From: Sphaerolaimus hirsutus
Taxonomy: Eukaryota; Nematoda; Chromadorea; Monhysterida; Sphaerolaimidae
Length of the DNA stretch: 64,000 nt
Reading direction: 5' to 3'
NCBI GenBank assembly: GCA_964036195.1
Contig: OZ038455.1
Location: 7,271,855 to 7,335,854 of the forward strand
Shown in pieces: positions 7,907 through 61,056 of the stretch. The position numbers and the translations under genes were made by a program. The notes under the pieces are model-generated. The model searched no databases and was not told the origin of the DNA. It saw nothing but the letters and a program-made list of their open reading frames with translations. Within the stretch, counting starts at the first letter, position 1, and each line of letters starts with the position of its first letter.

Positions 7907-10600
7907 TCAATTGACATCCTTTGTCAGGAATGGTTGCGCAGGGTGGTGGAATTGTCGCATGCTTTGCCAAATTTTCTGGTTCCAGAAGATGCGCGAGGGG
8001 TGCTTTCTGGCTGCTGGTTGGGTGGATCTGGTGATGGTTGTGTGGTTGTTCCTGGGAATCCTGGTGGCTGCAGCGTGGTTGCAAGAATATCCATGCTTCA
8101 AGTGTGCAGTTGTTGGCTTCTGGGAATTTACTTCTTGCATGTGCCGCACCCAGCTACAGTTGCCTGGAGGGTAGGCTGCTAGGGGCAGGGATTGCGGGGA
8201 AAGGTGTGGTGACGCTGGCCAGTGGTGTCTCTCATGAACATGGCGGACACAGCTCACTGTATCCATGGCTGGCCTCTTGTAGCATGCCTCACGCTGCAGT
8301 TGACCCTCTTGTCGGTGCTTGTAATTCACAGATGGATGGATTTGATGGATTCGCCCAGTGTATTCACGTGAAAGCCTCTCCAGTTCCTGGTGCGCTGTTT
8401 TGACAATCTGCAGGGGCCCCCAGATTGCTGCTCTGCCAATCAGAAGGGTGTCAGCTTCTGGGAGGAATTCTGTCAACTTCACCACTGCCGGAAGATGGTC
8501 ACTGTGCCATTCTCCATCAGGTGTCTGGTGCTTGACCTTCATGTCATAGATTCGCAGGCATTCCTGTGTGATATCATACCCTGATGTCTGGATATAGCCT
8601 TGTGTGTAGGGTCGAAACTTTGCCCTCTCTTTCTCTGGGTTGGCTCCAGCTTTTCTCCAGACTTTTTGCAGGGTGGAATCTTCAATAAACAGCCCGATGT
8701 TACAGCCAGTGTCAATACGCCCTGTGATCGGGATCCCCATGACTGTGACAGTTGCTATTGGGTCTGGGTGTTCAGTGGTGGGGGCATGGGGCATTTCTTT
8801 TGTATTGGCACTTATTGGCATCCAGTCCTCCAGATCTGGCCATTTGTCCTGTTCATCATCTGTGCAGCCTGCCCACGATTCATTGTCTTCCTCGTACTCT
8901 TCCTTTGTGCACCTACTGGCTGGGCCATCCGTTTGAAAGGGAATCCCCAGCTCTTCGCACTTCTTCAGCATATGTTGTTTGGCTTCTTCATCTGTTTTGC
9001 GTTGTCTCATTAGGGACCTCTTGACCTTTTCTGCCCTGTCTGCCCGGTACCCTGGAGACTTGCTATTAATGTAGCATTTGTTGGGGTCATGTGGCATTGG
9101 GGCTCTGTGCATGAAATATGTGCACCATGGGCCTTTGTGTGTCCTGGGGTCAAATGATGTTCTGTCATCCTTGGTCTCATTGCTCTTTGCACTTTGCACT
9201 TTAGGCTCGAACTGCCAGCTTCCACCATGTTGTGGTGGGCCTTGCTGATCTCTCTTCTCTTCCTTGCGCAGCAACTTGGCTTGTTCTGCCTCCAATTGAG
9301 CCGCATCCATCTCAGTGATGGCCATGTCAAGGGTGCAGGCATTCTCACGCCACCGCGCACGCCACATGTACCAGCAGGATGCCGGGACTGCCAGTTTCGG
9401 GACTTTGTTGAATAGCTTTTTCCCGATCATCTGTTCGCGGTCAAAATCAGACATTGTCTCACTGACATGATAGAAGTTTGCTGCCAGGCGGGTGTGGAGG
9501 GCGCATACTGACTCCCCTGGGGTAGCTTTGAGGTTGTACCAGTCGGTGGCGGAGTGTAGCTGGTGGTTGAGTCGATAAATGCCGACCAGCTTGTCAATCA
9601 CGTACAGGATGTCGTGTTTTCTGTTGGTGCGGATCGCCTGATACCGTTCCTGTGCCTCATCAGTCAGGGATTGGAGGAACACATTGGTCCAGAAAAACTG
9701 CTGCTGGCATTCTGGGATGCTCAGCGCCTGCTGCATGACCATGTGGAGCCAGCATTTGAATGGTCCGGTGCGGCTTGCTTTGTCACCATCAAATTTCATT
9801 TGTTTGCTGGCGGCTGATGCCATGTGTCCAACTCCCATTTTCTCTTTGTGTGGTGGTATGCTGCTCAATTGTTGTAGTCCATCATCGGGGGTCAGTACAA
9901 AGTGTTCCATGTAATTGATCAGTCGCTGCAGCAGCGGCCCCTGGGGAACCATCGCCAGCCGGTCTTCAGTTGTCCATTTCCACGGATCATCAATTTCTTT
10001 TAGTGTGGGCTGGGCAGTACTGATGGGGATGCCTTGGGCCATTTGCTGGGTCAGCTGTTTGATTTCAGCACTCTGCTGCTGTATTTGCACCTGTTGTTGC
10101 TGCATGAACCTCTGTTGTTGCTGCATCTGTTGCTGCTGTTGCTGCAGCATTGCTATAACTGTGGAAATGTCCCCTGCTTGCATTTTGGGGTCAGGAGCAA
10201 CAGAGGGTGCTGGCGACTGGCATGGGCGAGTTGTCAGTTGGATTACTGGGGATTCACTCATGGTCCCATCATCACTGTCGCTGTCATTACCATCATGCTC
10301 GGGGTCATCCATTACGATCTTGTCCTCGGACACTGATTTGAAGTACTTGTCAGCCAGTCGCAGCAGTTTGCGGGCCAGGGTTGCCGTGCTGTCTTTGCTG
10401 GCGACTTTGCCTGATGGCCAGCCTGCTTGGCGGTACTTGTTGATTGCCGTGATTCCACGGATAAGTGCACCCCTGTTGACTGTGTCGCACCATTCCGTGA
10501 TCTTTTCACTCAGTTCGCGTTCTGTGAATATCACTTGTCCCGCTGCTGGGGCACCAGTTGTGTTGACCGCTGCTGGGTCATTAGTAAGGGGTTTGGACAA
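7907..10600 (-). CDS. gag-pr: Gag-protease polyprotein of LTR retrotransposon, 897 aa
   Basis: Structural and protease polyprotein of the LTR element. The N-terminal part is acidic and Ser-rich; residues about 152-176 are a glutamine-rich coiled stretch (QQQQ...MQQQQ). Residues about 205-440 are alpha-helical and Trp-rich, like a capsid. A C..H..C cluster (WCTYFMHRAPMPHDPNKC, about 492-509) may be a single degenerate zinc knuckle. An aspartic protease active site GRIDTGCNIGLF lies at about 627-638, followed by a LLIGRAAI stretch typical of the second protease strand. The last 150 residues are His/Pro-rich and low-quality, and the ORF ends before any polymerase, suggesting that pol was deleted. 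The ATG at 10,600 is the first in the frame inside the 5' LTR. The clade (Ty3-like or BEL-like) cannot be settled without pol. Confidence 0.85.
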   Translation of the reverse strand: MSKPLTNDPAAVNTTGAPAAGQVIFTERELSEKITEWCDTVNRGALIRGITAINKYRQAGWPSGKVASKDSTATLARKLLRLADKYFKSVSEDKIVMDDPEHDGNDSDSDDGTMSESPVIQLTTRPCQSPAPSVAPDPKMQAGDISTVIAMLQQQQQQMQQQQRFMQQQQVQIQQQSAEIKQLTQQMAQGIPISTAQPTLKEIDDPWKWTTEDRLAMVPQGPLLQRLINYMEHFVLTPDDGLQQLSSIPPHKEKMGVGHMASAASKQMKFDGDKASRTGPFKCWLHMVMQQALSIPECQQQFFWTNVFLQSLTDEAQERYQAIRTNRKHDILYVIDKLVGIYRLNHQLHSATDWYNLKATPGESVCALHTRLAANFYHVSETMSDFDREQMIGKKLFNKVPKLAVPASCWYMWRARWRENACTLDMAITEMDAAQLEAEQAKLLRKEEKRDQQGPPQHGGSWQFEPKVQSAKSNETKDDRTSFDPRTHKGPWCTYFMHRAPMPHDPNKCYINSKSPGYRADRAEKVKRSLMRQRKTDEEAKQHMLKKCEELGIPFQTDGPASRCTKEEYEEDNESWAGCTDDEQDKWPDLEDWMPISANTKEMPHAPTTEHPDPIATVTVMGIPITGRIDTGCNIGLFIEDSTLQKVWRKAGANPEKERAKFRPYTQGYIQTSGYDITQECLRIYDMKVKHQTPDGEWHSDHLPAVVKLTEFLPEADTLLIGRAAIWGPLQIVKTAHQELERLSREYTGRIHQIHPSVNYKHRQEGQLQREACYKRPAMDTVSCVRHVHERHHWPASPHLSPQSLPLAAYPPGNCSWVRHMQEVNSQKPTTAHLKHGYSCNHAAATRIPRNNHTTITRSTQPAARKHPSRIFWNQKIWQSMRQFHHPAQPFLTKDVN

Positions 10601-10793
10601 CTTTGTGTCAGTGTTTTGTGCTCATTGGCACTCTGCACTTGTCACTTGCTCAGGACGGCAGAAGGCGCAGGGGCCGCTGTTGCTAGCGGTGCTGCCACGG
10701 GTTTGGATGGGGGATGGAGCTGCCGATGTCGCTGGGGGACAATCGGTGGCGGGTTCGTATGGCTTGAGATGTTTCAAGCCAGTGTGGTCACCA

Positions 10794-19174: not shown

Positions 19175-22100
19175 CTGCGACAGGAAATTGCATGAAAAAA
19201 ACGATCAGAATTCAATTTCCAAATGGCCCTACACACAATAGTTAACGACTGCAACTTCCGAAACTGTTAAGTCTGTTTGTGCGTACACACGCTATAGCTC
19301 TAAACCGAAATTTTGTCACACCGAAACAACTATTTGTCGTCAGATCAACACCGCGTGAATGTCACTTTAACCAGTCACTTTAAAGTGCCACGAAAACGAA
19401 ACCAAGCCAACCTCCCTGTAGGTAAGTTTCGGCACGCCGACCAATGTGGCACTGCCGCTTTTGTTCGATTTCAGTTCACTCATGTCCATTCCTTTTGCAG
19501 GCTTTATGGCCACTCGCCAGGCTGCGAGAGAAACGAACAAAAGTTACTATATATTCTTGAGTAAGACCCGCTCGAAAAACTCCTACCCCTTGCATAACCC
19601 CCCTGAAAGACTCTGACGAAAAAATACCCCCCACGAATACCTTCCCCTCTTGAATAACTCCGCTGTTGAAATATTCTACAAAATTAACAAAAATGATCGA
19701 TAAAAGTACAAAACAATGTTCATGTATGGCAGCGATAGCAGATACCGTATTACCTCGAATTATTCCCCCCCTTGAATTAACCCCCCCTCGAAATACCCCC
19801 CTAAAATTCGGCTGAGGAAATAATAAACCCCCCCTCGAAATACCCCCCCTAAAATTGAGTGTAAAGAGAACGTACATGACAAATACAGCAGTTTGTGATC
19901 TGTACACTGCAGAACACACGTTAAAACTAAAGATTGAGTGACGTTAGGGAAGGGTTTATGTGTATATACAGTTATATATACCTATAACGACATATACATC
20001 TATGTAATTGTTCGATTTTTCTACGTCCGAGTATGGGGAATTTCCGAAAATTTCTGGCGAAAAAATAGACCCCCCCCCCTCGAATAAACCCCCTCTCGAA
20101 TTAACCCACCCTCAAATTTTGCTGGCGAAATAATAAACCCGAGGTATTTCGAGGTAATACGGTACCTACATAACGTCTACGCAGTTTACACACATCTTCT
20201 TGTTGTTTTTGGACTGTAAAATACCTGGACTACATGACTTGACAGAATGCATTCATAAAGTCGGTGGACATTTCACCCTACAAAATCGGAGAGTTGAATT
20301 CGCTCGTGAATAGAGCGAACAACGAAACTTGTGTCCCACGCGGACGCTAGAAATTGAAAAAGAAAATCATATTAAAAGAAAAATGGACGTTTCTCTGCGT
20401 CCGTGCGTGCCACGCCATAGTTATCTACATTTTTAACGTTGCTTGTAAAGAATTTGACCGTTCAAACTACCGTTTTTGTTTTTATTTTATTTTTCATTTG
20501 TTGGCTCCATTAGAACAGAAGAGAACTTGGCAGCCGGCCTAAATTTCGAAATCTGCTATTGATATGAATAAAATAGGCTCACAATAGCTATATAACCATG
20601 TATAAAAAACAAAAATAGCGATTATGAAGGTGGAAATTGGCTTAGCGAAGCAGATTTTAACGATTTTTAGCTAACTTTCAGTTTTCATTCTCATTTGTAC
20701 TATACGCAACTGGTAACTGGGATAAGGGCCAAGTTTTCATACGTGACCCGATCTATTCCAATGGTTAAAATATTGCGTCACAATACCTAATGCCGTCATG
20801 CACTCTCCACTGGAGAGATTGACGCAAATGTTTGTAGGGCGATACGTCTGCCGACTTTACGATGAATTAAGACCAATTTTTCTGAGGAAAAAATAACTCT
20901 GCCCCTTGAAACTCCTCCCTCTTGAATAACTTCCCCCAAAAAAAACTATGACAAAAAATAACGGTACGTTGTACAAACATTTTGCATGTCATTTGTAGTG
21001 AGGTATATGCAAAACAGAATTTGCAAAAGTATACCGTATTCCCTGTAATAAAAAAGCACGCAGTGCACGTTGATATTATACTATCAAAAAATCCTGTTTA
21101 GTGACATTTATTACCAGTTTTAGGTATGTAAAATGGTTCATTCTTTACTACGAACCTTCCTGAAAATTGTTAGCAAAATAAAAAAACCTCCCATCAAATT
21201 ACCCCCCCCCCCCCGCTTAAAATTTGCTGGCGAAAAAATAAACCCCCGGGGGTATTTCGAGGGATACGGTATGCAAAATCACGCATTCGTTCAGAAACTC
21301 ACAATCGTATGTCCAACCGCCACTTTTCAATTCGCATCCGTATCGAGGAGGCCCGAATACAAGCTCGGGTTCGGGAAGACATGGAATTGTGTACTTGATA
21401 GCGGGAACATAGTTTATTGAGCCATTACTCGTCGCGATAAATGGATAAGGTATTCCGTCGTCGATAAATTCGTACTTCCTATTGCAAAGGGGGGGGGGGG
21501 TACTTTTATGCAATATGACTGGTTTATGGTGGTTTTTGGTGGAAGTGATACGATTTTTCTACTAATAAAAGTGTGCCCTTATATTTTTCCGTCGACCCTT
21601 CTTTTGGAGATGCCCTTCTATTTTTTCAACTTTTTTTTCAAGTTGTGCTAAGGTTTTGCAAACTGTTACTTCACAGTTTATGTTGAGTATCATTACAAAA
21701 AAAACTAGGTAGATGTCAAAGTCACTGTTACTTCATAGAATTTACCTACCGTATTACCGTATTACAATTGAGCCCCCCCCCCCCGAAATACCCCCACCCA
21801 AATTGAGTGTAAAGAGAATGTAAACGACAAATACCGATAATATGTTCAAATCAAATCAAATCAACTTTATTACCACTCTGAATGTTCTATGAAAATTGCA
21901 TACGGTAATTGAAGAGTTTTTTTTTCCAAAACTCGATATCTCCATTTTTATTTTTTTTTTGGAAATTGCATTCGATCTGTTGAAAATGGCCTGAAAAGGC
22001 AGGCTTTGAGTGACAACCCTTGCCAACTTTAAAAAAAAGGATTATCACACAAAGCGTGCCTTCTCAGGCCACTGTCAATGTTTCAAGTGCAATTTTTCAA

Positions 22101-25100
22101 AAACTGACGGAATGGAGATATCGAGTTTCGGAAAAAAAAACTCCTCAATTATCATTGGCATCATTCCAACGTGAACGATGGCGACCGGGGTGATTTTTCC
22201 TCACCCGGTTAACATTGGGAAGTTAAGCAAGGGGGCGGTGTTATTCGAGGGTGTATTATATTTACGCGAATTTAGGGTAGTTTGTACTAAACAGTTACAT
22301 ACCCAGAGTGGGATACGAAATCAGGCGACCAGATGTCATTGTATCCAAAGCGCATTTGTGAAACGCCGCCGTAATCTTCTGGATTCCACACCAATTTTGA
22401 ATCCATCCAATGCTATAAAGGTAAAGATTGGATATGGTAGATCCAACAAAAAAATCGAAAGACGTAATTTATGAGTCGATCCTAACTACCGGAGATAACA
22501 TAATTTTTTTGCGGAAACTGGCTAAAAATAACTCCCTCGCCTCAATATTGATCATGCATTTTACTTGAGATTTTGTTGTAAAAATGACTTCTCCCATCGA
22601 TTAACGCTACAGTAAAAAAATCCTAAAGAAGCAATAACTTCCCTGGCCCCAGATTTAATTGGGCTGATTATCCCTGAGAGGGAGGACATGACAGGCGTGT
22701 CTGGCAATTCGAGATTTTCTTGGACAGGCATGCCCTCGCCCGCCCGCCCGCCCCTTTTTTGCCCAGAACTGCTCAGATTCACTCCATTTTGAAAACTTTG
22801 ACCTAAGTCATCGCCATTTTTATCTTTATACACGGTTATATACCTATTTTTATATTTATGGCAATTTCGGAATTTTTGGCCGGCTGCCAAGTTTGCATAA
22901 GACGTATGTCCGAGTTTTATTTTTATTTTTGGGAGTAAAATCCCGCCGGACCCGCCCGTCGCGCCAGGCACCTGACAGCCGCTGCCCGACTGCCAGGCAG
23001 ATCGAGATTCAATTGCGTGCCGGGCGGCAGCTGTCAGGTGCCTGGCGCGACGGGCGGGTCGGGCGGGATTTTACTCCCGAAAAGAAAAAGAAAAATCGGA
23101 GATACATCTGAAGAAAACTTGGCAGCCGGCCAAAAATGTTGAAATCGCTATAAATATAAAAAAATCTGGTATATAACCATGTATAAAGATGAGAATAGCG
23201 ATTATGAAAGTCGCAGTTTTCAAAATGGAGCGATTTTGGACAAAAATCGCTCATAATTTGCTACACGTAAATAAATTGTTGCAGATCGATTTGGGGGGGG
23301 GGGGGGGGGGTCAGTAGATAGTTGAGGAAAAATTTGCCTCTGGGTAGATAGATAGCTGAGCAGCATCCAGGGGCTGTCCCAGACCCTGTACAAAACCCTG
23401 TAAAGTGTAAAATTCCTTGTAAAATGTCATGTGTCAGGTAAAAGGCTGTGTAAAATGTCAAATGTCATATAAAAGACCCTGTAAAATGTCTGTTGTAATG
23501 GAACACGTTAAAAATTGCCAAAATCGTCACCACAAATGTTAATTTTTTTCGTCCTCACTTCAAAAAATACTGTGCACAAATATGATGGTTGATGAAAAAA
23601 GTGCAAAAAAATTTGGCACCTTAAGGCGTGTTTGAACACAGGACCTGTGAACTCCCAGCAGAAACACATACACATCGACCACAGGAGGTGTTGCTTTAGC
23701 TGTCTTAGCAACCTTCATATTCAAACACTGTATTTTTTGAACAATGTGGACAATAAAAATCAACGTTTGTGGCGATGATTATTGAGATTTTCAACGTTTT
23801 TCATTACATCTGACATCCTCAGATGTTTTTTTATCTAAATTTTTCATTACAACCATGAAATATCATGCAAATTTGTGCCCACCCTTAGGGTTCAAACGGG
23901 ATCCAGATCCCGGATCCCGTGAAATTCCGGGATTTTGCAGTCCTGATCCCGAAAATTTTCAAATCCCGATCCTGAGAAACTCCCAAGTCCAGGATCCCGA
24001 TCCCGGACAAATCAGTGAAATTATAAAAAGTGAAAGAATGACGTTTTTGTATGCAAAAATGTGAACGAAAACCCCCCAGCATCCATTTTATACCACTTTT
24101 CTGGCATCCAACAGTGTTTTGAGACCTTTATGAACAACTGTGGATGCCAGAACATTGGCCAAAATTTATATCCCAAGACCCCAATCCCGATCCTGAAAAA
24201 ATGCCAATCCCAATCCTGATCCCGATCCCGTGACCCCAATCCCGGCCAATCCTAATCCCGATCCCGAAATCTCAAAAAACCAATCCCGATTCCAATCCCG
24301 ATCCCGAAATATCAATCCCGTTTGAACCCTACCCACCCTGCACCTCCGGGGCTGCAGGGCAGAATATCCTTTTTCTTTTTTATTCTGCCCAGCAGACATG
24401 CAATTGCCCTCCCAATTAAATCTCGTTTGCCATTTTTCAGGCAAATCTGGCACAGTGAGGGCACGTCTGGCAGGCGCTCGGTCGTGTCAGGCGCCTGGCA
24501 GGCGTGACGGGCGTGTCAGGCGCCAGGCAGGGAGGGCAAAAATTTGTCTGCCCAATTAAATCTGGGGCCTGGGGACGTGTATGTATGAAGGGCAACGATG
24601 GCAAACAGAAATTCGGAAATTTGAAAACACTTTCGAATTTTCACTTTTTTACCCTTTTCAATTTTTATTTTACCCCTTGGAAAAAAACAATTGAAATTTT
24701 GTTTTAGAAAAATTAACAAATTCGAAAACGCTCTCGAATTTCCTAATTATTTTCATTATTTTTTGCAGAAAATGCATAAAAAATACAGAAACACAGTTTA
24801 AAAAATTAGATTTGCATGAATTGATTTATAGTGACAGAACAAAAATGCGCAGAAGTGTCTGCAGTAACAGTTTGGAAGACTGCAAAGCATGAAAATGTAT
24901 TCAAAATTCACCAGAAAAATAAAAAATGCAGTAATTTGATGCAAAAATTTTTTTTTAATTAAAAACTCTGAAAACTACTGTATATCCTCGAATAAGTGCC
25001 CAGGGGGGTTATTATTTCATCAAAAGTTTTGGACGGGAGAGTTATTCAAGGGGAGGAGTTATTTTTTCCTTTGAACTTTCACTTAATTCATTGTATGGAT

Positions 25101-27144
25101 GCATTCCATCAACAAATCTAATCCAGGTAATACAAGGTAAAACATTCATGCTAAAATTAGTGTTCATTGGCATCAGAGTTGGAAAAACGTATTTACGTTT
25201 ACCCGAAATACCCGGTTATTTGGGTATTTATACTTACGTTTACGTTTACGTTTTCCAAAAATACCATTACGTTTTGTTACGTTTTCCTGGCACAATTACC
25301 CGGGTACCAGAGAAAACGTAAAAATCCAACCACGCGTCTGCCAAATGTGCTCTATTACTACATAGTCACATATTGATTTTGTGTGAAAAGTTATACCAAT
25401 TGGACATAATGCCAATGGTGTTGTGTAATTGTCGTTTTGACAGTGCAAATATTCTCAATAAATGTAATCAAGCAATTTTAAATGTAATCAATGTGTCAAT
25501 TGTTGAATGTGAACAGTGTGGTGAATGAATGTATTAATAGCTTTAAATACAAGCAGAAAATGGAATGTGTGTATTTATGGGAGTATTGTGCATTAGACAA
25601 CCTTTCACTGTTTTGTTTCATTCATATCGTGCTGATGTTTAGCAGAAATGTAATGTTTGATGAAGAAGTGTTCTAATCCAAGAGCTTGCTAAACTGCGAG
25701 GCCATCAGCACCAACATTCATTTACAAAGGTAAACATTTCAAAAAAGATGTTTTCTTTGCTATGAAATGCAAGTGAAAAATGTGGATGGAAACATGAATA
25801 CATTGTTGAAAATGTCACAACAATGGTCTTTTCAGAAGCTCTGCTCATATGGGGTACTTCTTGAAATTTTTACGTTTACGTTTTCTTTTACGTATTCCTT
25901 GGTATTTTAAAAATACCTTACGTTTTAGTATTTATACTTTAAATTTGGAAAAGGTATTTACGTTTACGTTTACGTTTTCCAAAAATACCGGTATTTGAAC
26001 AACTCTGATTGGCATTTGAATCATTCAAATACACATTGTGGATACACATACCAAATACCCAGAGGGGGAGGGGGGTTATTCAAGAGAGGGGAGTTATTCA
26101 AGAGGGGGGAGTTATTCAAGGGGATGAGTTATTGTTTTCTAACCTGGCAAACCAGGGGAAGTTGTTCAAGGGGGTGTTTTTCAAGGGGGAGGACTTATTC
26201 AAGTATTTTTGGTAAATTCAAAAATTTGAAAAACATTTTCAGAAAAAATTCAAAATTTGAAACATTGTTTTAGGAAAAAAACACTCAAAAATTTGAACAC
26301 TTTTTTCCAATGTTTGCCATCGTTAATGAGGGGTCATGCTCCACTCCTTCAAAAAACTTAGTATACTCGGGTGACATTACAGCCTACATTGTCGGAGGAA
26401 ATACTCCATCATGACGTCATAACCACAGTCTGCAGTGAACTGCGGCTGACTGAACCGAACTGCGGCCCTTTCATGGCGCGCGACGCCCTGTCATGCGGAA
26501 GTTTCATCACGTTGTCTCATAAGTTTTCGGCTGGCCGCCTGCCAACCGAACCCTTAACTCCTATTTGTTTGTAGGGTATCGTGTCTGCCGAGTATACTAT
26601 ACTTAACAACCTTGAAAAAGAGTAATGGGTAAAACAACAAAACTTGCATGTTTTTCCAACATTCGCACGCGAAGCTCGTTCGTTTTTCTGCACTGCGAAT
26701 GGTATCAGACAAATGAAGCTGATTAGTGAAGACAAAAACAACAGGGATGTATGAAAGACTACAGGAAAAGTAGGAAACGTACAAAATGAAAAGCCTGCAG
26801 TACATAAGTGATGTTGTCATATATACCGTCGGCATGTTTCTTGACTGGGGGCAGTCCCAGACCCTGCAAAATGCCCCGGAAAATGTAAAATGTCATGCAG
26901 TGTCAAAAGTGACGTAAAATGCCCTGCAAAATGGCAACTCGGTTGCCATTTGGCAGGGCATTCTACGTGACTTTTGACACAGCATGACATTTGACATTTC
27001 ACAGGGCATTTTGCAGGGTCTGGGATTGGCACCTGGTCGCACGTTCACACTGCCATAGTTGCTTAGTAAATCCCTTTGTAGACGTGTTTCATCGAATTCG
27101 GCAACGGCAAAAGTTATGAGACAAAATGAAAATAGCAGTTTCAT
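19103..27144 (-). CDS. AChBP-like gene A: soluble Cys-loop ligand-binding-domain protein (multi-exon)
   Basis: Seven exons on the minus strand: 27,144-27,033; 26,844-26,783; about 26,692-26,645 (boundary uncertain); 22,412-22,303; 21,478-21,303; 19,521-19,412; 19,174-19,103. The product starts with a signal peptide (MKLLFSFCLITFAVA), then DETRLQRDLLSNYG..RPV, the usual N-terminal helix of nicotinic receptor-type domains. It continues with HWMDSKLVWNPEDYGG, the Cys-loop strand region, GGWTY and loop C YPCCSEPY, and stops at FTIELDG. A receptor would run on into M1; here TGA TAG follow directly, as in mollusc AChBP. The Cys-loop lacks the receptor FPF motif. The predicted role is a secreted pentameric ligand-binding protein. 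The loop-A tyrosine is replaced by His. A diverged non-channel receptor subunit is the alternative. Confidence 0.72.
19175..19411 (-). other. Intron 6 of AChBP-like A
   Basis: Between donor GTTGGC and acceptor CCTGTCGCAG. No repeat or other gene recognised. Confidence 0.6.
19412..19521 (-). CDS. AChBP-like A exon 6
   Basis: 110 bp, acceptor TTTCTCTCGCAG, donor GTTGGC (weak). Reads SWRVAIKPAKGMDMSELKSN then KSGSATLVGVPKLTYRE, in phase with exons 5 and 7 and aligned residue for residue with copy B. Confidence 0.75.
19745..20162. mobile_element. TA-target C-rich MITE in intron 5 of AChBP-like A
   Basis: Tips CCGTATTACCTCGAATTA and TATTTCGAGGTAATACGG with TA flanks. GTACATGACAAATAC subfamily. 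Confidence 0.8.
20163..21033. other. Intron 5 of AChBP-like A, with a dispersed AACTTGGCAGCCGGCC repeat
   Basis: 20,524-20,700 belongs to a dispersed family (also 22,870-23,260, 35,155-35,300 and 35,480-35,650) marked by AACTTGGCAGC, a TATATAACCATGTATA block and an AATAGCGATTATGAA block. Nothing coding is seen. Confidence 0.5.
21034..21269. mobile_element. TA-target C-rich MITE adjacent to exon 5
   Basis: Tips CCGTATTCCCTGTAATAA and TATTTCGAGGGATACGG with TA flanks. Ends 34 bp from exon 5 of AChBP-like A. Confidence 0.65.
21303..21478 (-). CDS. AChBP-like A exon 5 (Cys-loop and loop B)
   Basis: 176 bp, acceptor TTGCAATAG, donor GTGAGT. Reads YEFIDDGIPYPF, NYVPAIKYTIPC, then a 14-residue inter-cysteine loop, then CELKSGGWTYD. 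Loop-B Trp is kept. Confidence 0.85.
21479..22302 (-). other. Intron 4 of AChBP-like A
   Basis: Holds a C-rich MITE fragment (21,749-21,840). A palindromic stretch (about 21,910-22,145) has arms containing AACTCGATATCTCCATTTT or its complement around a loop near 22,025. No exon is apparent. Confidence 0.5.
22303..22412 (-). CDS. AChBP-like A exon 4 (110 bp)
   Basis: Acceptor CTTTATAG, donor GTATGT. Exactly 110 bp, the conserved size of this exon in nicotinic receptor genes. Reads HWMDSKLVWNPEDYGGVS, then NDIWSPDFVSHS. The loop-A aromatic position (Tyr in AChBP and in copy B) is His. Confidence 0.85.
23370..23490. mobile_element. Introner-family fragment
   Basis: GGGGCTGTCCCAGACCCTGT, followed by repeated CCCTGTAAAATGTCA words as in the two intron-forming copies. 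The second arm is incomplete. Confidence 0.55.
23886..24331. mobile_element. hAT-like element with GATCCCG arrays
   Basis: Tips TAGGGTTCAAACGGGATCC and TCCCGTTTGAACCCTA. Exact 8-bp duplication CCCACCCT (23,878-23,885; 24,332-24,339). Arrays of GATCCCGATCCCGAAAT at both ends enclose a unique core (about 24,010-24,170). Confidence 0.88.
25174..26007. mobile_element. hAT-like element with TTTACGTTTACG arrays
   Basis: Tips CAGAGTTGGAAAAACGTA and TATTTGAACAACTCTG. Exact 8-bp duplication ATTGGCAT (25,166-25,173; 26,008-26,015). TTTACGTTTACGTTTTCC words near both ends and a unique 0.5-kb core. It lies in intron 3 of AChBP-like A. Confidence 0.88.
26362..26596. mobile_element. TATACTC-type MITE, 235 bp
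   Basis: Begins TATACTCGGGTGACATTACA and ends GTCTGCCGAGTATA. It lies about 50 bp from candidate exon 3 of AChBP-like A. Confidence 0.65.
26645..26692 (-). CDS. AChBP-like A exon 3 (candidate)
   Basis: Reads QKNERASRANVGKTC, which resembles the family's EKNQ....NV segment. The family's exon here is 45 bp. An acceptor CATTCGCAG precedes it, but neither the donor (a GCAAGT site or GTTTTG) nor the phase fits cleanly, so limits are approximate or the exon is damaged. Confidence 0.4.
26783..26844 (-). CDS. AChBP-like A exon 2
   Basis: 62 nt. It starts directly after the introner and reads V-KKHADGIYDNITYVLQAFHF, matching the beta-1 strand region after RPV in the family (RPVxxHAD...). A donor GTACGT follows in phase 0 at 26,782. 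Confidence 0.6.
26845..27032 (-). mobile_element. Introner: foldback transposon forming intron 1 of AChBP-like A
   Basis: On the gene strand the intron runs GTGCCAATCCCAGACCC...GGGACTGCCCC then CAG. The transposon itself is 26,848-27,032 (185 bp), with inverted tips around a central AACTCGGTTGCC loop, so nearly the whole element folds on itself. CAG stands on both sides (27,033-27,035 and 26,845-26,847 on the gene strand), a 3-bp target duplication. The GT donor is the element's first two bases, and the AG acceptor is the duplicated target. Removing it joins RP-V-KKHAD in frame. Read-through would meet a stop. Confidence 0.85.
27033..27144 (-). CDS. AChBP-like A exon 1 (signal peptide and N-terminal helix)
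   Basis: 112 nt, 37 codons plus one base. ATG at 27,144; hydrophobic signal MKLLFSFCLITFAVA followed by EFDETRLQRDLLSNYG and VRP. The exon ends CAG at the donor GTGCCA, which is the tip of the introner element. The spliced codon G+TC restores the family's RPV motif. Confidence 0.75.
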
Positions 27145-28322: not shown

Positions 28323-29843
28323 GTTGCTTTTTTTTTGGGGGGGGGGTCCTTTGGGAAGCTTTGAGAGTGAAGGTGTCAAATTTCCGTCTTTTGTTTCAGT
28401 TTTCCGCAGTAAAATTTTACCTTTTCGCTTTCCTTTTGCCGACGGCTGAAGAATTTTCGCCTTTCCGTTTTCCGTAATGATTCTTTTTGACACCCTATTT
28501 GAGTTACGTTTTTATTGTGTTGTTGTTGTTGGCATTTTTTCACCCAAAATTGGGATCTAAAACTGAATTTGAGACCGAAACTGTCACATAAATACAAATG
28601 GTGTCGGGAATAGGGATGGGAATTGGAAAATCGTCAAGAATTGGTCGTGCAGTGGTGTTGCTAAATTTTGTTGGCGACACGCTTTCACATTTTGTGTGCA
28701 TCAACAAATTGAAACCAACTTTCACGCACGCCCAATTTGCATCTGATGCCAAAAAAAACATGCAAATTTCGATGCACTATTACAGGATTTGGTGGATCGG
28801 CGGCTGCCCGGCAAGTGGGATTACGCGTACAAACTGCACCAGGCGTATTTGAACCTGCAAGCGCGGCTGAATGTGCTCTTTGACCAGGAATCGAACAAGG
28901 TTCTCGGCGAGAAGGCGCCTGGCGTCAGACAAATTCTGGAGAAAAAAGAAGGTTAGTATTTTTTTGTTTTCGTTTTTTTTTGACTGGTTGTAAATTTGTG
29001 AAATAATGTGAACACCAAATGTGTTCCCCACCCCCAGGAATGTTCCGCAAGCACATGATGGGCAAGCGCGTGAACTTCGCCTGCCGCTCGGTGATCACCC
29101 CCGACCCGTACTTGTGCATCGACCAGGTGCCACTCCCAGACTCTGTAGAATGTCATGTCATATGTCAACATTAATGCAATGTCAAAGTTCATGGAAAATA
29201 TCAAACGACCATAAATAAAAGAAATTTTGACATTTTACATGACTTTTGACACTTTGCATGACATTTTACATGACGTTTTACACGGTCTCTGAGTGGCACC
29301 AGGTGGGCGTTCCTGCAGTTTTCGCCAGACGACTCACCGTCTCGGAGCCTGTAAATGATCGCAATTTAGCTCGGCTAAGGAAGCTCGTCGATCGGGGCCC
29401 TAACGTGTACCCGGGGTGAGTTGCGGGTATTTTTCGCTTTCTATTTTTGTGTTCGTTGCGTGTATATGCGCGACTTAATTTAAAAGCTATATTTAACTGG
29501 AGTTTTCCGATGTTTCGATGTTTCCGATCTATTTTAAGCTGCACTGGAAAATGATATCAATTCATATCATATACCAAAGCATATGAAGTATAGCATTGTG
29601 GAATCCTGCATAATTGTTTTTTAAACATTATCATATTGCTCGCATTTCAAATCATCTATCATTAAAAATTTTTTTCCGATCAAAAACCAAAAATATATAA
29701 AATACCCCGCCGCAGCGCGAATTTCGTCACTGCACCCAATGGAGCTCAATATGCGATCAATCCAAAATCTTCAACGAGTGGCTCAGTGCAGAAAGGGCCT
29801 CAAAGCAGAAACACCGCCGATGCAGACAGATTACAGCCGCCAG
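28100..29843 (+). CDS. POLR1A: RNA polymerase I largest subunit, internal exon block (partial)
   Basis: Five consecutive exons (28,100-28,322; 28,786-28,951; 29,038-29,126; 29,303-29,415; 29,716-29,843) encode about 239 aa in one continuous frame. Diagnostic stretches are DVLFMDLVHVMPTRYRPVR (Pol I-type clamp region), KKEGMFRKHMMGKRVNFACR then SVITPDPYL, and VGVPAVFARRLTVSEP then GPNVYPGANFV. These match the A190/RPA1 region leading up to the catalytic aspartate loop. It would form part of the clamp/active-centre module of nucleolar Pol I. All junctions are GT-AG and in phase. Upstream exons are not seen (AChBP-like A occupies that side on the other strand), and the NADFDGD catalytic exon was not found downstream. 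The gene is therefore either spread over very long introns or this is a partial copy. Confidence 0.85.
28368..28497. mobile_element. Short hAT-like element with TTTCCG words, in a POLR1A intron
   Basis: Ends TGAAGGTGTCAAATTTCCG and TTTTGACACCCTA. Flanks TTTGAGAG (28,360-28,367) and TTTGAGTT (28,498-28,505) agree at 6 of 8 bases. Only 130 bp, made largely of TTTTCCGT words. Confidence 0.6.
28786..28951 (+). CDS. POLR1A: POLR1A exon b
   Basis: Acceptor TATTACAG, donor GTTAGT. 166 nt. Reads DLVDRRLPGKWDYAYKLHQA and ends APGVRQILEKKEG across the junction. Confidence 0.85.
29038..29126 (+). CDS. POLR1A: POLR1A exon c
   Basis: Acceptor CCCCACCCCCAG. 89 nt. Reads MFRKHMMGKRVNFACRSVI then TPDPYLCIDQ. 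Ends at CAG; the donor GTGCCA is the introner tip. Confidence 0.88.
29127..29302 (+). mobile_element. Introner: foldback transposon forming a POLR1A intron
   Basis: The intron starts GTGCCACTCCCAGACTC and ends GTCTCTGAGTGGCAC plus CAG. The transposon is 29,127-29,299 (173 bp) with inverted ends. CAG occurs on both sides (29,124-29,126 and 29,300-29,302). The internal words AATGTCATG and GACTTTTGACA match the AChBP-like A introner. Splicing joins IDQ to VGVPAVF exactly as in the family; unspliced, the frame stops after 18 codons (TAA 29,172-29,174). Confidence 0.9.
29303..29415 (+). CDS. POLR1A: POLR1A exon d
   Basis: 113 nt. Reads VGVPAVFARRLTVSEPVN then ARLRKLVDRGPNVYPG. Donor GTGAGT. Confidence 0.88.
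29716..29843 (+). CDS. POLR1A: POLR1A exon e
   Basis: Acceptor CGCCGCAG, donor GTGAGT. 128 nt. Reads ANFVTAPNGAQYAINPKSST and continues to RLQPP in phase. Confidence 0.75.
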
Positions 29844-47703: not shown

Positions 47704-49356
47704 TCATTCAGATATTGACCCGAACCTGCACATAAAGTGTATAAGTTTTGATGTATTTTGTATTAGTAGGAGCAGTACTCGGTGATTTTTTATACTAGCG
47801 AGATTTAATTTCGCAGCAAAACCCACTTTTTTATCGTGACAGCCATTTGACCACGTCACCAATTTCCCCTCCCGTCTCGCCTCGAATTTTTGGGGCCGCC
47901 ATATTGGTATCCACCATCTAGGCGATAGTCGCGCGAATCGTTTCGATATCCTGCCCATCCTGACCCTGATCCGTGTTGCAAGTTTTTGGGGGATGTTAAG
48001 TGAACCCATATTAGTATTCTTACACCCAGTGACCAACATGACATCTGACGTCATCAGAGTTTTCATCAATTCCCTGCAGCATATCAGATCAAATGCTGCA
48101 GACGGGTGCAGCCTGTCTGTTTTCATTGCGAACAAATACGCCACCGCACTGGATTTATTTCCGACAAATTTTTCCGCATTTTCAGCCAGCCATTTTAGTG
48201 GTTCCAAAACTATCACTCTTGTATTAACCTCTAAGTAGTTTTTGGTATGCTCTTCAAAGCAGAGCATGTAATCCAGCATTTCACGCGCTAAATTTGGTGA
48301 AAGCTCTTCTGTCACCATGCACGGCAGAATGGCATTGTGCGGGGACAAAATGATAACAGTGTCATGCATATCATGCTGTTTCAGCCATTTTTCGACTCTG
48401 AGTAGCAGCGTGTGGATCGGTTTTAGAAAATAATTTTCCCAGCACTCTAGTTTTTTTGCTTGGCTGCGACCCGACCGCGATTCATACAATTCACATGCCA
48501 AAGAATCGAGACAGCATCTGACAAAAATCGAGTCAAATTTTCTGTCTGGTTTGTAGCACTTCATCAACACCGGGAGTATGCAACCCAAGCGGCGACCATT
48601 GAACAAGTTGCCAAAATCGCACATGTCTAGCGGCATCTTGCACTGCTTAGACAAGCTGCGATGGTTACCGTATATATTTTTTTTGAAATTGAAATATATT
48701 GTTGAAATTGTCCCAATACTATGTTCAACGTACCGCCTCAGTTCAGATTTGCACCGCGCGGTGCAGCTGTCCCCCAAAATCAGCAGATTATGTTTTTGCA
48801 ACGGCATTTTTGACATAATATCACATTGCATGTAATTGACCTCAAACATTTGTAGGGCAGGCCCTTCACGGTAGGGCGAATTGGGCGCCCAGTTCGCCCC
48901 CTCAAATAGTAGTGGCAGAATATCTTTTAGGCTGGTGTCACCACCCGGCGAGATGTTCGGCGCGTACACCATATAGCGAGACGCATCATACCCCATGCCC
49001 AGCGCGCGCAAGTTCACCATGTCAGACATTTTTGCAAGAGCATCACGAGGCAGATCTGCCACCGAAAAGTTCTTTTGCCAGTTAGGTTCCGAATAAATTC
49101 TCCACCCGCGTACCTGAGAGTTTTGGGCAGGCGTTCCGTAGGTGGCATGTGATGTGTAACCAACAGCGTCTCTCACATTTTCCGTATTTGTGCCCGACGA
49201 CGCGCGGGTGCCCTCGCCCGCCGGCGCAGCTTGCGCTGTGGCCGCTGCCCCAGCCGCAGCCGCGCTAGACCGATTTTCGCGCGACTGAGTAGATTTTAAT
49301 GGGTGATTAGACATAAACAGTCCGTAGAACTGTATCCCACACTCTTTATTAATCAT
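47704..49356 (-). CDS. Transposon ORF C: 550-aa protein with SGNH-hydrolase-like motifs
   Basis: The first ATG in frame is at 49,356 and overlaps the stop of ORF B within the 8 bases ATGATTAA. The N-terminal 85 residues are low-complexity (Ala/Ser/Gly). LLILGDSCTAR (about 191-201) resembles block I of SGNH/GDSL hydrolases with the catalytic Ser in GDS. VIILSPHNA (about 334-342) fits a central beta strand, and DRLHPS (about 414-419) fits the DxxH block V that supplies Asp and His. Esterase-type SGNH domains are known in ORF1 proteins of some non-LTR elements, but here it sits in a TIR-bearing element. The enzyme call rests on two motifs and spacing only; a structural comparison would decide it. 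Confidence 0.65.
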   Translation of the reverse strand: MINKECGIQFYGLFMSNHPLKSTQSRENRSSAAAAGAAATAQAAPAGEGTRASSGTNTENVRDAVGYTSHATYGTPAQNSQVRGWRIYSEPNWQKNFSVADLPRDALAKMSDMVNLRALGMGYDASRYMVYAPNISPGGDTSLKDILPLLFEGANWAPNSPYREGPALQMFEVNYMQCDIMSKMPLQKHNLLILGDSCTARCKSELRRYVEHSIGTISTIYFNFKKNIYGNHRSLSKQCKMPLDMCDFGNLFNGRRLGCILPVLMKCYKPDRKFDSIFVRCCLDSLACELYESRSGRSQAKKLECWENYFLKPIHTLLLRVEKWLKQHDMHDTVIILSPHNAILPCMVTEELSPNLAREMLDYMLCFEEHTKNYLEVNTRVIVLEPLKWLAENAEKFVGNKSSAVAYLFAMKTDRLHPSAAFDLICCRELMKTLMTSDVMLVTGCKNTNMGSLNIPQKLATRIRVRMGRISKRFARLSPRWWIPIWRPQKFEARREGKLVTWSNGCHDKKVGFAAKLNLASIKNHRVLLLLIQNTSKLIHFMCRFGSISE

Positions 49357-51310
49357 AGCGAATTTTTTGTAGAATTTTGGATAGGACACACCACCCTGGA
49401 ATCAATGTGCATATTTTCGGAACGAATTTTTGTTTACCACTATCCCATCCCGGTTCTTCATATAGGGTATTTGAGAGTTTGTTACGCATCCCCCGCTGTG
49501 CCACACCTGGCCAACAATTTTTGGTATTATCAATAAACCCAAATTTCCATGTCCTTAAAGTAACCGTATCGGACGTATCGACGTAGTTCCCGATTCGCAC
49601 GCTGCGCAGCACTGGCACCGCTGCCGGCGCAGGGCCCGGACCCACTACGTGGCCGCGAGACTGAGAGACAGATTTTGCATATTTTTGTAACCCTAATTGC
49701 CTAAGTCGTAAATCAGTTTTTCCCAATTTACACCCAGCAGCATTTTTTGTGTTTGATTTAATACAGACCCCGTTCGAGAACACATGAATTTCAAACACTT
49801 TCAACACAATAAACCTTAAACACTCAGATTTTTTTTGATCCCTTTTGACAAACTCTATTGACCCTTTAGTCAAAAACTTAAAAACTGTGTTATTTCGAGC
49901 TACTTGACATACCATGCAACCCATAAAATCGCATATTACCAAGTTCAAATTCCCAAACATCTCCACATATCGAGTTTTGTGGGACTCTAGATGCGGGTTA
50001 GCATTCCATATACCGGTGGCCACGTATTTATCATAGTCCGCGTTATACATCTTTACTTCCATGGGGTTTTCAGTGTGGATACGGCGCAGCCCTGGGCGTA
50101 GGTCCATGTAGGCCTCACCCAGCAGGCCCCAGTACGGCAACCCCCAATTTTCGCGATTTTCGTCAGCCGTGAGTACCTTCACATTTGGGTGCATGTTAAA
50201 ACGAGTTGTTCGCATATTGTTACCCGTCCACAACGCCTTATAAAATGTATTTAAGTACCGTATTTCTTTACCCAGTGTTTTATCGGAACTCAGCGTATTT
50301 TCACTTTTACAATCCAATACCTTTTTAAGAACCGGCATCATAAACCCCTTATTTTTTATCTGTTGTACCCATAAAGTACCCCTAGAGTGGTGTAATTCTA
50401 CCCCGGTTACCTCAATTTCATACTTTTCCGCCCCTACCATCAGCGCCGATCGAAAATCTTCAGGCCGATTCTTTGAGTACGGAAAAACGCCACAGCTGCG
50501 CATTTGTCTGTCGACAAATTTTCCGCCAATGGTTTGGTGAGTGCGAAACAGGCACGCGGCCAGCAGCTTGTTCAGAGCAAGTGCGGCCTGAACCTGTGGT
50601 GTGGTTAGATTGACATATATACCGTTTTTTACCATTCCACCATAACCACTAATATGTAGGTTGAACCTAACCACTTTTGTCAGCGCCACATAAGCGGGTG
50701 TAAAACACGCATATTGTAAAGTGTCTGCGCAGCCACGACCATACCAATTTTTTCCATTTGGCAACGCTGCCCACAGGGCCTGTGCCCTAAAGTACCACAG
50801 TCGGAATTGGTTGTCGTATCTGTTCTGGGCGTGAGTCCTGTACTCCCCATTCAGTTTGAAAAGTTCACGGATTTGCGCATCGCTCGCCCCGCAGTGCAGA
50901 GTTTGCAACTGTAAATTTTGACACACAGTATTAGTGAAAAACATATCACCTAGATATTTTGTCATATTGCATTCCCAACCAACCCTCATAACCGCCAGCA
51001 TCATGCAATTAAACGTCTCATCTTGGCTGTCCAACATGACTAGATACGGCCATACCAATGAAAACATGTCACTGTATTCAAATGTGGCAAAATGTAGTGG
51101 TTCAGGCAGTTTTGGCGGCTCCGGCATGGTTTTTGCAGGCATTTTTAGGGCTTCAAAATCCGACGTCAACTTTTTCAGACGAGCATCAACATCACACACA
51201 TACAACAGAACGGTGTGCATAGTGCCCAGATCGACCGTTTTGTTCCCCCGCCCCGCCGCGACACGTTTGCCCATTGCCGACCGCAAGAGATCGATGTCCA
51301 TAGTTTTCAA
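49349..51310 (-). CDS. Transposon ORF B: 653-aa protein of unknown family
   Basis: Intact 653-codon ORF, ATG at 51,310, 21 bp after ORF A's stop. The protein is mixed alpha/beta by eye, Trp- and Cys-rich, with stretches such as LRLWYFRAQALWAALPNG-like aromatic helices near residues 165-185 and LVICDFMGCMVCQVARN near 435-450. The C-terminal 150 residues are basic with a Pro/Ala/Gly linker. As the largest protein of the element it is the best candidate transposase, but I could not place a DDE triad or any other catalytic signature. Codon frame is open throughout, arguing for recent activity. Confidence 0.7.
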   Translation of the reverse strand: MKTMDIDLLRSAMGKRVAAGRGNKTVDLGTMHTVLLYVCDVDARLKKLTSDFEALKMPAKTMPEPPKLPEPLHFATFEYSDMFSLVWPYLVMLDSQDETFNCMMLAVMRVGWECNMTKYLGDMFFTNTVCQNLQLQTLHCGASDAQIRELFKLNGEYRTHAQNRYDNQFRLWYFRAQALWAALPNGKNWYGRGCADTLQYACFTPAYVALTKVVRFNLHISGYGGMVKNGIYVNLTTPQVQAALALNKLLAACLFRTHQTIGGKFVDRQMRSCGVFPYSKNRPEDFRSALMVGAEKYEIEVTGVELHHSRGTLWVQQIKNKGFMMPVLKKVLDCKSENTLSSDKTLGKEIRYLNTFYKALWTGNNMRTTRFNMHPNVKVLTADENRENWGLPYWGLLGEAYMDLRPGLRRIHTENPMEVKMYNADYDKYVATGIWNANPHLESHKTRYVEMFGNLNLVICDFMGCMVCQVARNNTVFKFLTKGSIEFVKRDQKKSECLRFIVLKVFEIHVFSNGVCIKSNTKNAAGCKLGKTDLRLRQLGLQKYAKSVSQSRGHVVGPGPAPAAVPVLRSVRIGNYVDTSDTVTLRTWKFGFIDNTKNCWPGVAQRGMRNKLSNTLYEEPGWDSGKQKFVPKICTLIPGWCVLSKILQKIRYD

Positions 51311-51331
51311 CGTCTGAGCGGAGGGGCATCT

Positions 51332-52549: not shown

Positions 52550-52712
52550 GGGGCAGTTCCAGACCCTGTAACATGCCCTGTAAAATGTAAAATGTCATGC
52601 AAGGTGTCAAAAGTCACGTAAAATGACCTGCAAAATGGCTACTCGGTTGCCATTTTGCAGGGCGTTTTACATCACTTTTGACAGGGCATTTTCCAGGGTC
52701 TGGAGCTGGCAC
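52550..52712. mobile_element. Introner-family element abutting the three-ORF transposon
   Basis: Ends GGGGCAGTTCCAGACCCTG and CAGGGTCTGGAGCTGGCAC around a CTACTCGGTTGCC loop, a near-perfect foldback of 163 bp. It is preceded directly by the CTG that also ends the large transposon. On the right is CAT, so the duplication is not exact. It is the same family as the two intron-forming copies. Confidence 0.75.
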
Positions 52713-60400: not shown

Positions 60401-61056
60401 TGCTAATTTGGTGATAATTCACCTAATTAACATGCAAACAACCCATACACGCCAATTATAGATGTTTGAAACATTTTATTTTTTGCCGGGGACCAGTCCC
60501 TGGCCAGGGCCTGTGTAAATAACGGTTGTGGTTATACCTCAAACTAGATAATGGAATCCCGAAACTCACAGTTTGAAGTCCAACTGCCACTTTTCAATTC
60601 ACAGGTGTATTTGCCAGACTCATCGGGTACAGGGAGACATGGGATTGTGTATTTGATGGGGGGAACATAAATTATCCCGCCATCATTTTTCACAACAAAT
60701 GGATACCGTATTGCGTCATCGAGCATAAATTCGTACTCGCTTTTGAATGCGGGGCAGGGGTTACTTTTATCCAATAGTCCTGGTTTACGTTTGTGTGCAA
60801 TATACATACCGTATATCCTCGAATAAGACCCCAGTGGAGTTATTTTTTCGTCAGAGTTTTTGAGTGGAGAGTTTTTCAAGGGAGGGAGTTGTACAAGGGT
60901 GTCTTATTCGAGAACACACGGTAGTTAGTATTAAACAGTTACATACCCAGAATAGGACACGAAATCAGGCGACCAGATGTCATTGTATCCAAAGTGGGTT
61001 TGTGAAATGCCACCGTAATCTTCTGGATTCCACACCAATTTTGAATCCCGCCAATT
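57406..61056 (-). CDS. AChBP-like gene B: soluble ligand-binding-domain protein, 3' part
   Basis: Four minus-strand exons: 61,056-60,947; 60,739-60,570; 57,730-57,618; 57,477-57,406. They are homologous to exons 4-7 of copy A with identical phases. The product reads NWRDSKLVWNPEDYGG, IWSPDFVSYSG, IIYVPPIKYTIPC, an 11-residue inter-cysteine loop, CELKSGSWTS, then KFYACCPEPYG and a stop after IELDG. The aromatic-cage residues of loops A (Tyr), B (Trp) and C (two Tyr plus the CC pair) are present, so cholinergic ligand binding is plausible. The 5' exons (signal peptide, loop D) would lie beyond 61.1 kb and were not found before the window's end. It could also be a truncated receptor paralogue. 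Confidence 0.72.
57618..57730 (-). CDS. AChBP-like B exon 6
   Basis: 113 bp, acceptor TTTTCTCGCAG, donor GTTTGT. Reads NRVSIKPVEPSMDMSELRSN, then KSGSATLVGVPEVSYEE. Confidence 0.75.
57767..58323. mobile_element. Mariner-like palindromic MITE in intron 5 of AChBP-like B
   Basis: CAGGGTGCGGCAATTTAGAC at the left and GTCTAAATTGCCGCACCCTG at the right, TA on both sides (57,765-57,766; 58,324-58,325). The arms of about 230 bp are inverted copies. The CAGGGTG tip with TA is typical of mariner-type elements. No transposase. Confidence 0.85.
58324..59700. other. Intron 5 of AChBP-like B: C-rich MITE, ACGTAAA words and a GAAGCGT word array
   Basis: 58,611-58,856 is a C-rich TA-type MITE. 58,930-59,300 carries AAAAGTA/ACGTAAA words. 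59,313-59,612 is built of ACGCTTCC/GAAGCGT words in both orientations (for example GGAAGACACTTCAC) without clear tips. No exon seen. Confidence 0.5.
59715..60530. mobile_element. Long palindromic element with CCGGGGACC words
   Basis: Arms 59,715-60,110 and 60,130-60,530 are inverted copies, including GCATGTTAATTAGGTGAATT and its complement. Words such as GGGGACCGGTCCCC cluster at both tips and at the centre. The ends read AACAGGCCCCGGCTGTGG and CCAGGGCCTGTGTAAATA. The target duplication is unclear. It lies in intron 5 of AChBP-like B, next to exon 5. A diverged second copy is at 61,950-62,870. Confidence 0.8.
60570..60739 (-). CDS. AChBP-like B exon 5
   Basis: 170 bp, acceptor CATTCAAAAG, donor GTGAGT. 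Six bases shorter than copy A: three residues fewer in the Cys-loop, one more before it. Reads DGGIIYVPPIKYTIPC and CELKSGSWTSN. Confidence 0.85.
60947..61056 (-). CDS. AChBP-like B exon 4 (110 bp)
   Basis: Acceptor TTTCCTTTTAG, donor GTATGT. 110 bp like copy A. Reads NWRDSKLVWNPEDYGGIS, then NDIWSPDFVSYSG with loop-A Tyr. Confidence 0.85.

Follow-up and report, generated by a model that had tools for sequence, protein, structure and literature searches.

Our results argue that intron 1 of an AChBP-like gene (gene A) in the nematode Sphaerolaimus hirsutus is an introner-derived intron, and from the sequence we put the probability of this at about 0.93. The gene lies in a stretch of 64,000 nucleotides (the window) of contig OZ038455.1. 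In the proposed history, a non-autonomous palindromic DNA transposon (a miniature inverted-repeat transposable element, MITE) would have inserted in an exon at CAG and duplicated those three base pairs. The 5′ splice site would come from its left tip, GTGCC, and the 3′ splice site from its right tip, TGCCCC, which is rich in pyrimidines, together with the duplicated CAG; excision of the element with one CAG would restore the coding sequence. We favor this reading because the element fills the intron, the frame is restored, relatives of the gene are uninterrupted at this position, and copies of the family occur in frame in many genes unrelated to it. For the family, the anatomy, the CWG (CAG or CTG) duplications, the copy number, the in-frame joins and the relatives without the intron are observed directly; that the gene A intron is spliced in the animal is what we infer.

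Intron 1 of gene A and its relatives

The features of this locus are:
26845..27032, minus strand: intron 1 of the AChBP-like gene A, 188 nt, GTGCC...CCCCCAG
26848..27032, minus strand: the introner (MITE) copy proper, a 185-bp foldback
27033..27035, minus strand: left (5′) copy of the duplicated target CAG and end of exon 1
26845..26847, minus strand: right (3′) copy of the duplicated target CAG, source of the acceptor AG
27033..27144, minus strand: coding part of exon 1, MKLLFSFCLITFAVAEFDETRLQRDLLSNYGSVNVRP plus 1 nt, with a signal-peptide-like start as judged by eye
26783..26844, minus strand: exon 2, (V)KKHADGIYDNITYVLQAFHF, its end placed before GTACGT from donor-like sequence

Intron 1 is a GT...AG intron, and a 185-bp foldback flanked by CAG duplicates makes up all of its 188 nt. 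An earlier note on this DNA had proposed as much, and the arms, the duplicates and the coordinates 26845-27032 bear it out. Read on the minus strand with its flanks, the sequence runs CCAG/GTGCCAATCCC...GGGACTGCCCCCAG/TCAAG. The foldback arms (26847-26938 and 26942-27033), separated by 3 nt, are 92 nt each and 88% complementary. The RNA fold predicted for the intron has an energy of -135.8 kcal/mol (shuffle mean -51.3, z -21.4), and its stem leaves out the first four and the last seven bases.

The same arrangement could also have arisen if the element had entered a pre-existing intron 1 whose surrounding sequence was later lost, the match between tips and splice sites being secondary. Transposons are common in introns, and a single copy in a single gene cannot discriminate between these histories. 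However, the gene A element fills the intron to both splice sites with zero residual intron sequence, copies in POLR1A and in other genes likewise leave nothing over, and relatives of gene A are uninterrupted at the intron 1 position. We consider such a secondary entry very improbable.

Excision of the element joins MKLLFSFCLITFAVAEFDETRLQRDLLSNYGSVNVRP to VKKHADGIYDNITYVLQAFHF in phase, with the junction ...NVRP^VKKHADG, in agreement with the in-phase splice of RP to VKKHAD that the earlier note had predicted. The joined peptide of exons 1 and 2 was searched against the whole genome at the protein level and gave 10 matches. Gene A and, at a distance of 41 kb, a paralogue (C7:7340321 and 7340063) are both split at the intron 1 position, and the paralogue has this intron too (C7:7340116), beginning at precisely that base and made of a family copy 84% identical to that of gene A. 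The simplest history is a single insertion predating the last duplication. Five places in the genome, two of them perhaps one locus, hold relatives without the intron:
C7:7378330-7378509: joined residues 1-60 in 180 nt, 77% identical, stop-free
C7:7352231-7352398 and C272:71823-71990: residues 4-59, 55%, with equal scores, perhaps one locus assembled twice
C2:2132412-2132546: residues 14-58, 53%
C13:17900345-17900509: residues 5-59, 33%, E 0.007

A match at C13:16806274 ends at residue 39 and is uninformative on intron 1.

These matches bear on a second alternative, namely that the true exon 1 lies elsewhere, that the element sits in the 5′ flank and that the in-frame join is due to chance. 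Exon 1 is short and database support for gene A alone is weak, which would suit this view, but exons 1 and 2 together match one unbroken 60-codon frame at 77%, with shorter frames at four more places, and the paralogue that shares the intron has an exon 1 with 89% identity. A chance join is hardly credible on this evidence, and it is related sequences within this genome, rather than databases, that support the introner-derived join. VKKHAD had been called the conserved motif of the protein family; this stands in part, since the paralogue reads VKKHTD and AChR alpha aligns here as VRPVEDH or IRPVEHH. We use the label AChBP-like because an exon at 60544-60903 (minus strand) matches the AChBP structure 4aod (E 2.6e-4; Pfam PF02931 reaches only 0.15) and because gene A has weak AChR matches of its own. 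AChBP-like sequences form a cluster, at 21217-21558 and 60544-60903 of the window (both minus strand) and at C7:7340063-7378509, with the introner intron in some members and absent in others.

The family across the genome

Other copies in the window are:
29127..29302, plus strand: intron of POLR1A, a family copy with GTGCC at both tips and CAG duplicates at 29124-29126 and 29300-29302
52550..52712, minus strand: third copy, with ends CATG/GTGCC...CCCC CAG and no coding flank recognised
23370..23490, strand not assigned: partial, diverged copy

The gene A element aligns with the POLR1A intron at 70% over 161 aligned positions (E 4.6e-13), which upholds the homology first noticed by eye, and the joined POLR1A exons align without gaps over 68 residues to the largest RNA polymerase I subunit (4c2m RPA190, E 6.7e-20; 7ob9 RPA1, 1.8e-19). 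The claim that two unrelated genes carry introns of one family is thus supported, and the two belong to a large family: the exact donor tip GTGCCANTCCCAGACCCTG occurs 2,027 + 1,963 = 3,990 times in the genome, against 0 for a reversed-pattern control. Both introns had been described as lying GTGCC-first. This holds for gene A and fails for the POLR1A copy, in which GTGCC reads inwards from both ends and the mark assigns no orientation; among CAG/CAG copies with intact tips, 13 have such GTGCC/GGCAC tips, compared with 370 that have the TGCCCC tip. The 26-base tip pattern had no exact match in viral contigs.

Two sets of copies were studied: full-length matches across the genome (the best 40 of 4,048 candidates scored) and a sample made up of the first 80 of 100 listed donor-tip places, every one on contig C1. 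The consensus built from 73 full-length copies, taken from the best matches and the sample, is a 189-nt foldback with 88 pairs; mean divergence is 8.7%. Besides the 3-nt loop, its mismatches are confined to the terminal seven bases, GTGCCAA at the left end and TGCCCC at the right. The left tip is fixed by the way copies were selected and the right tip is free in the 80-copy sample, where it is of the CCCC type in 46 copies, GCAC in 2 and other in 28 (n = 76). A palindrome can be a donor at one end and an acceptor at the other only if its tips differ, and in this family the asymmetry sits at the splice sites; the two unlike tips were presumably favored because they splice. Arms pair better within copies (0.888) than between random pairs (0.858; 0 of 5,000 permutations), with 121 compensated double changes where 37.6 are expected. 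Selection for the hairpin after insertion is nevertheless unsupported, since nearest-relative pairing is higher still (0.900-0.906) and shared subfamilies can explain the arm pairing. Some copies (L012, L013 and L017 on C4, L016 and L027 on C7) lie inside duplicated or repeated flanking DNA.

The family carries the marks of a DNA transposon, target-site duplications (TSDs) and terminal inverted repeats (TIRs). Both ends could be placed in 76 copies of the sample, and identical 3-bp duplications were found in 48 of these and differing sides in 28, although the script that placed the right duplication tried five offsets and favored a triplet that repeated the left one or had the form CWG, a choice that somewhat inflates identity. 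The identical duplications were CAG/CAG in 27 copies, CTG/CTG in 17, CAT/CAT in 3 and AAT/AAT in 1, and their CWG character is visible also without the placing script. Exact-pattern counts over the whole genome, in which 136-166 bases separate the two fixed parts, gave left/right triplets of CAG/CAG in 370 copies, CTG/CTG in 224, CTG/CAG in 110 and CAG/CTG in 38. The mixed class with AG on the 3′ side is 2.9 times the larger (110 vs 38, p 2.6e-9), and CAG/CAG is in excess over CTG/CTG (p 2.2e-9). Side-neutral mutation would level the two mixed classes, and their inequality fits selection for AG in the 3′ duplicate.

Family similarity reaches both splice boundaries in unrelated genes. Of the near-full-length copies in fetched loci (n = 44), GT and AG both occur within the searched span in 39, and in 35 the AG is no more than 3 bases from the tip. 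Flanks of 38 hand-picked copies, with copy and frame chosen by eye for recognisable sequence, were joined, and in 12 a Pfam domain above cut-off spans the junction: SDF, Vma12, PIP49_C, LRR_6, Oscp1 (two copies), 7tm_1, Filament, EGF, Cation_efflux, CBS and CHGN. The other 26 joins showed no above-cut-off Pfam domain at the junction (for example L071, L112, L037 and L033), and a PDB search of L071 and L080 gave zero matches. The gene content is that of an animal, for example AMPK gamma, intermediate filament, FAT-type cadherin and AChBP-like exons. At one locus, L025 (C1:7353800-7363700), two introner copies lie 1.3 kb from each other; their flanks are of cadherin type, above the Pfam cut-off in one copy and below it in the other.

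The orientation of copies in genes, which the earlier note had wanted counted genome-wide, was checked on samples by an automated control. At a Pfam threshold of 0.001, 9 of 83 forward joins and 0 of 73 reverse joins gave a match (p 0.0036), where one best frame was taken per copy and the match need not span the junction. By set, forward against reverse, the sample gave 3/46 vs 0/43 and the best matches 6/37 vs 0/30, the latter with p 0.029 alone. Members were tallied from a family list in which two GPCR models count as one member and two LRR models as one. The control left out four copies without a right end and L092, L126 and L127 of the 80, and L012, L017 and L027 of the 44.

Several results weigh against an introner origin, in addition to the inflated identity mentioned above. 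In the 80-copy sample the mixed duplications are level (CTG/CAG 4, CAG/CTG 3), the orientation control is non-significant on its own (p 0.24), and only 5 joins have domain support, with 20 of the 80 copies scanned by hand; most family copies may lie outside coding exons. A target preference linked to orientation could be the source of the CAG/CAG excess. Gene A exons 1-2 have a weak match to AChR alpha in the PDB (E 0.065), and a Pfam scan of its joined exons alone reached zero domains. Open-frame length across the join, compared with shuffled pairs, was a weak test (p 0.03 to 0.72): at three cut-offs it gave 29, 22 and 20 in the best-match set (n = 32; p 0.035, 0.11 and 0.11) and 22, 15 and 7 in the sample (n = 34; p 0.077, 0.029 and 0.72). 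Because GC-rich flanks are often open by chance, we rejected open-frame length as proof of coding.

CTG/CTG copies and candidate GT...TG introns

Three of the 17 CTG/CTG copies in the sample lie in frame and in the same orientation within conserved genes, with 3′ tips that lack AG. All three are candidate GT...TG introns:
L119, C1:5773240-5773790: CTG/CTG copy in AMPK gamma
L085, C1:3591780-3592330: CTG/CTG copy in OSCP1
L110, C1:5420910-5421460: CTG/CTG copy in CHGN

Joined at TG, L119 matches AMPK gamma without gaps over 70 residues (E 4.8e-34; CBS 2.1e-6), L085 matches Oscp1 (7-48 on 48-89, 4.4e-17) and L110 matches CHGN with one residue off (15-118 on 410-512, 4.1e-16). A CAG/CAG copy 0.8 kb from L085, L086, likewise joins OSCP1 sequence, and the two probably interrupt one OSCP1 gene. 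L040, a copy with CAG/CTG duplicates that lies in a cation-efflux gene, scores 53.0 bits when joined at TG (83 residues on 83 positions) and 52.9 when joined at the AG six bases on (81 on 83); since it fits both equally, L040 does not decide. Domain-supported joins in the sample number 3/17 for CTG/CTG and 2/27 for CAG/CAG under unequal effort (10/17 against 7/27 copies hand-scanned), and the automated scan alone finds one in the CTG/CTG class (CHGN) and two in the CAG/CAG class.

CTG copies that could not be removed would be expected to be missing from working exons, and the in-frame copies suggest that CTG-target copies are a second branch of the same insertion logic. There is an even chance, in our judgment, that the CTG/CTG copies in genes are instead spliced at ordinary nearby AGs or sit in damaged or segregating alleles. 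All three offer in-frame AGs within -70 to +60 of the tip (L119 at -30, -18, +18 and +33; L085 at -45, +18, +24, +30 and +57; L110 at +18 only), and the internal TTTTACAG upstream of the tip, at -18 in L119, is in frame there and would add 6 residues. In L085 and L110, however, it lies at -19 and would shift the frame, the +18 sites, if used, would remove residues within the matched domain, and the TG joins align well. That TG is used at the 3′ end of at least some CTG copies is, on the sequence at hand, a serious possibility that falls short of an even bet. An equally tentative picture is that of one family with two intron classes set by the duplicated base, CAG giving GT...AG and CTG giving GT...TG, in which the hairpin would hide internal AGs and expose the tips and TG would later mutate to AG. 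That the stem buries the internal AG and exposes the tip is a guess; improvement of TG acceptors to AG would explain the excess of CTG/CAG copies.

Known systems and the origin of new introns

A survey of 3,325 genomes reported introners in 175; within animals and land plants they occurred in only two groups, and both of these are animal (Gozashti et al. 2022, PMC9860276). Some introners bring a splice site of their own at one end and recruit the second from the TSD. The present family resembles these in its repeated introns that match up to both splice sites and in its TSD and TIR, and it corresponds to the type of their Fig. 2C, with the 5′ site carried and the 3′ site co-opted. It differs in its animal host, its 3-bp CWG duplication, its near-perfect palindrome with asymmetry at the splice tips, and its CTG class without AG. 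Introner elements of Amoebophrya (PMC7789003) share the hairpin introns, the short direct repeats over exon/intron borders and the non-canonical ends, but there the splice ends vary widely and family-specific repeats were not found, whereas here one family has a GT donor tip and mostly a CWG 3′ end.

The NuwaI group of PHIS (PIF/Harbinger-like) transposons is defined by a CWG duplication, is known from animals, and has tips that usually start GGG (PMC4482050). Our family shares the 3-bp CWG duplication, and its right tip starts GGGG; unlike NuwaI, its left tip starts GTG, and it is known here from non-autonomous copies. We infer that a PHIS/Harbinger-type (NuwaI-like) transposase moved the family. 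The DDE_Tnp_4 transposase family has at least 163 matches in the genome, with 150 of 306 candidates scored, and many have the same score. These equal scores resemble a recent burst; one match lies some 15 kb ahead of the window, at C7:7256307-7256936, and in most of the listed full-length matches TGA occurs about four times within the span that matches, perhaps because of an intron. Long open frames at 7907-10621 and 47704-51331 of the window (both minus strand; 904, 565 and 660 aa) look by eye like proteins of mobile elements.

Human TG 3′ splice sites of U2 introns are described (Szafranski et al. 2007, PMC2374985) only as alternatives to an AG that lies no more than 28 nt away. The internal ACAG here lies within 28 nt of the TG tip in the same way, but TG may be the main site here, and transposition would create many such sites. 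Larvacean tunicates such as Fritillaria have many non-GT/AG introns, with introners named as one possible source (PMC13326754); in the present family the donor remains GT, and a departure from the rule is possible at the 3′ end only. We found no published description of this family in the open-licence literature, mostly judged by title. As far as seen, what is new is a large family in an animal genome with a CWG logic, a palindrome with splice-site tips and a possible TG class.

The origin of new introns is an old question, and the 2022 survey places introners in only two animal groups. Here the target site, the duplication, the asymmetry at the splice tips, the intron-free relatives and many copies are visible together in one genome, and the AChBP-like cluster, with and without the introner intron, offers a natural series for intron gain. 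If the CTG class is indeed spliced at TG, the AG rule and the repair of TG to AG would become testable on many natural replicates within one genome.

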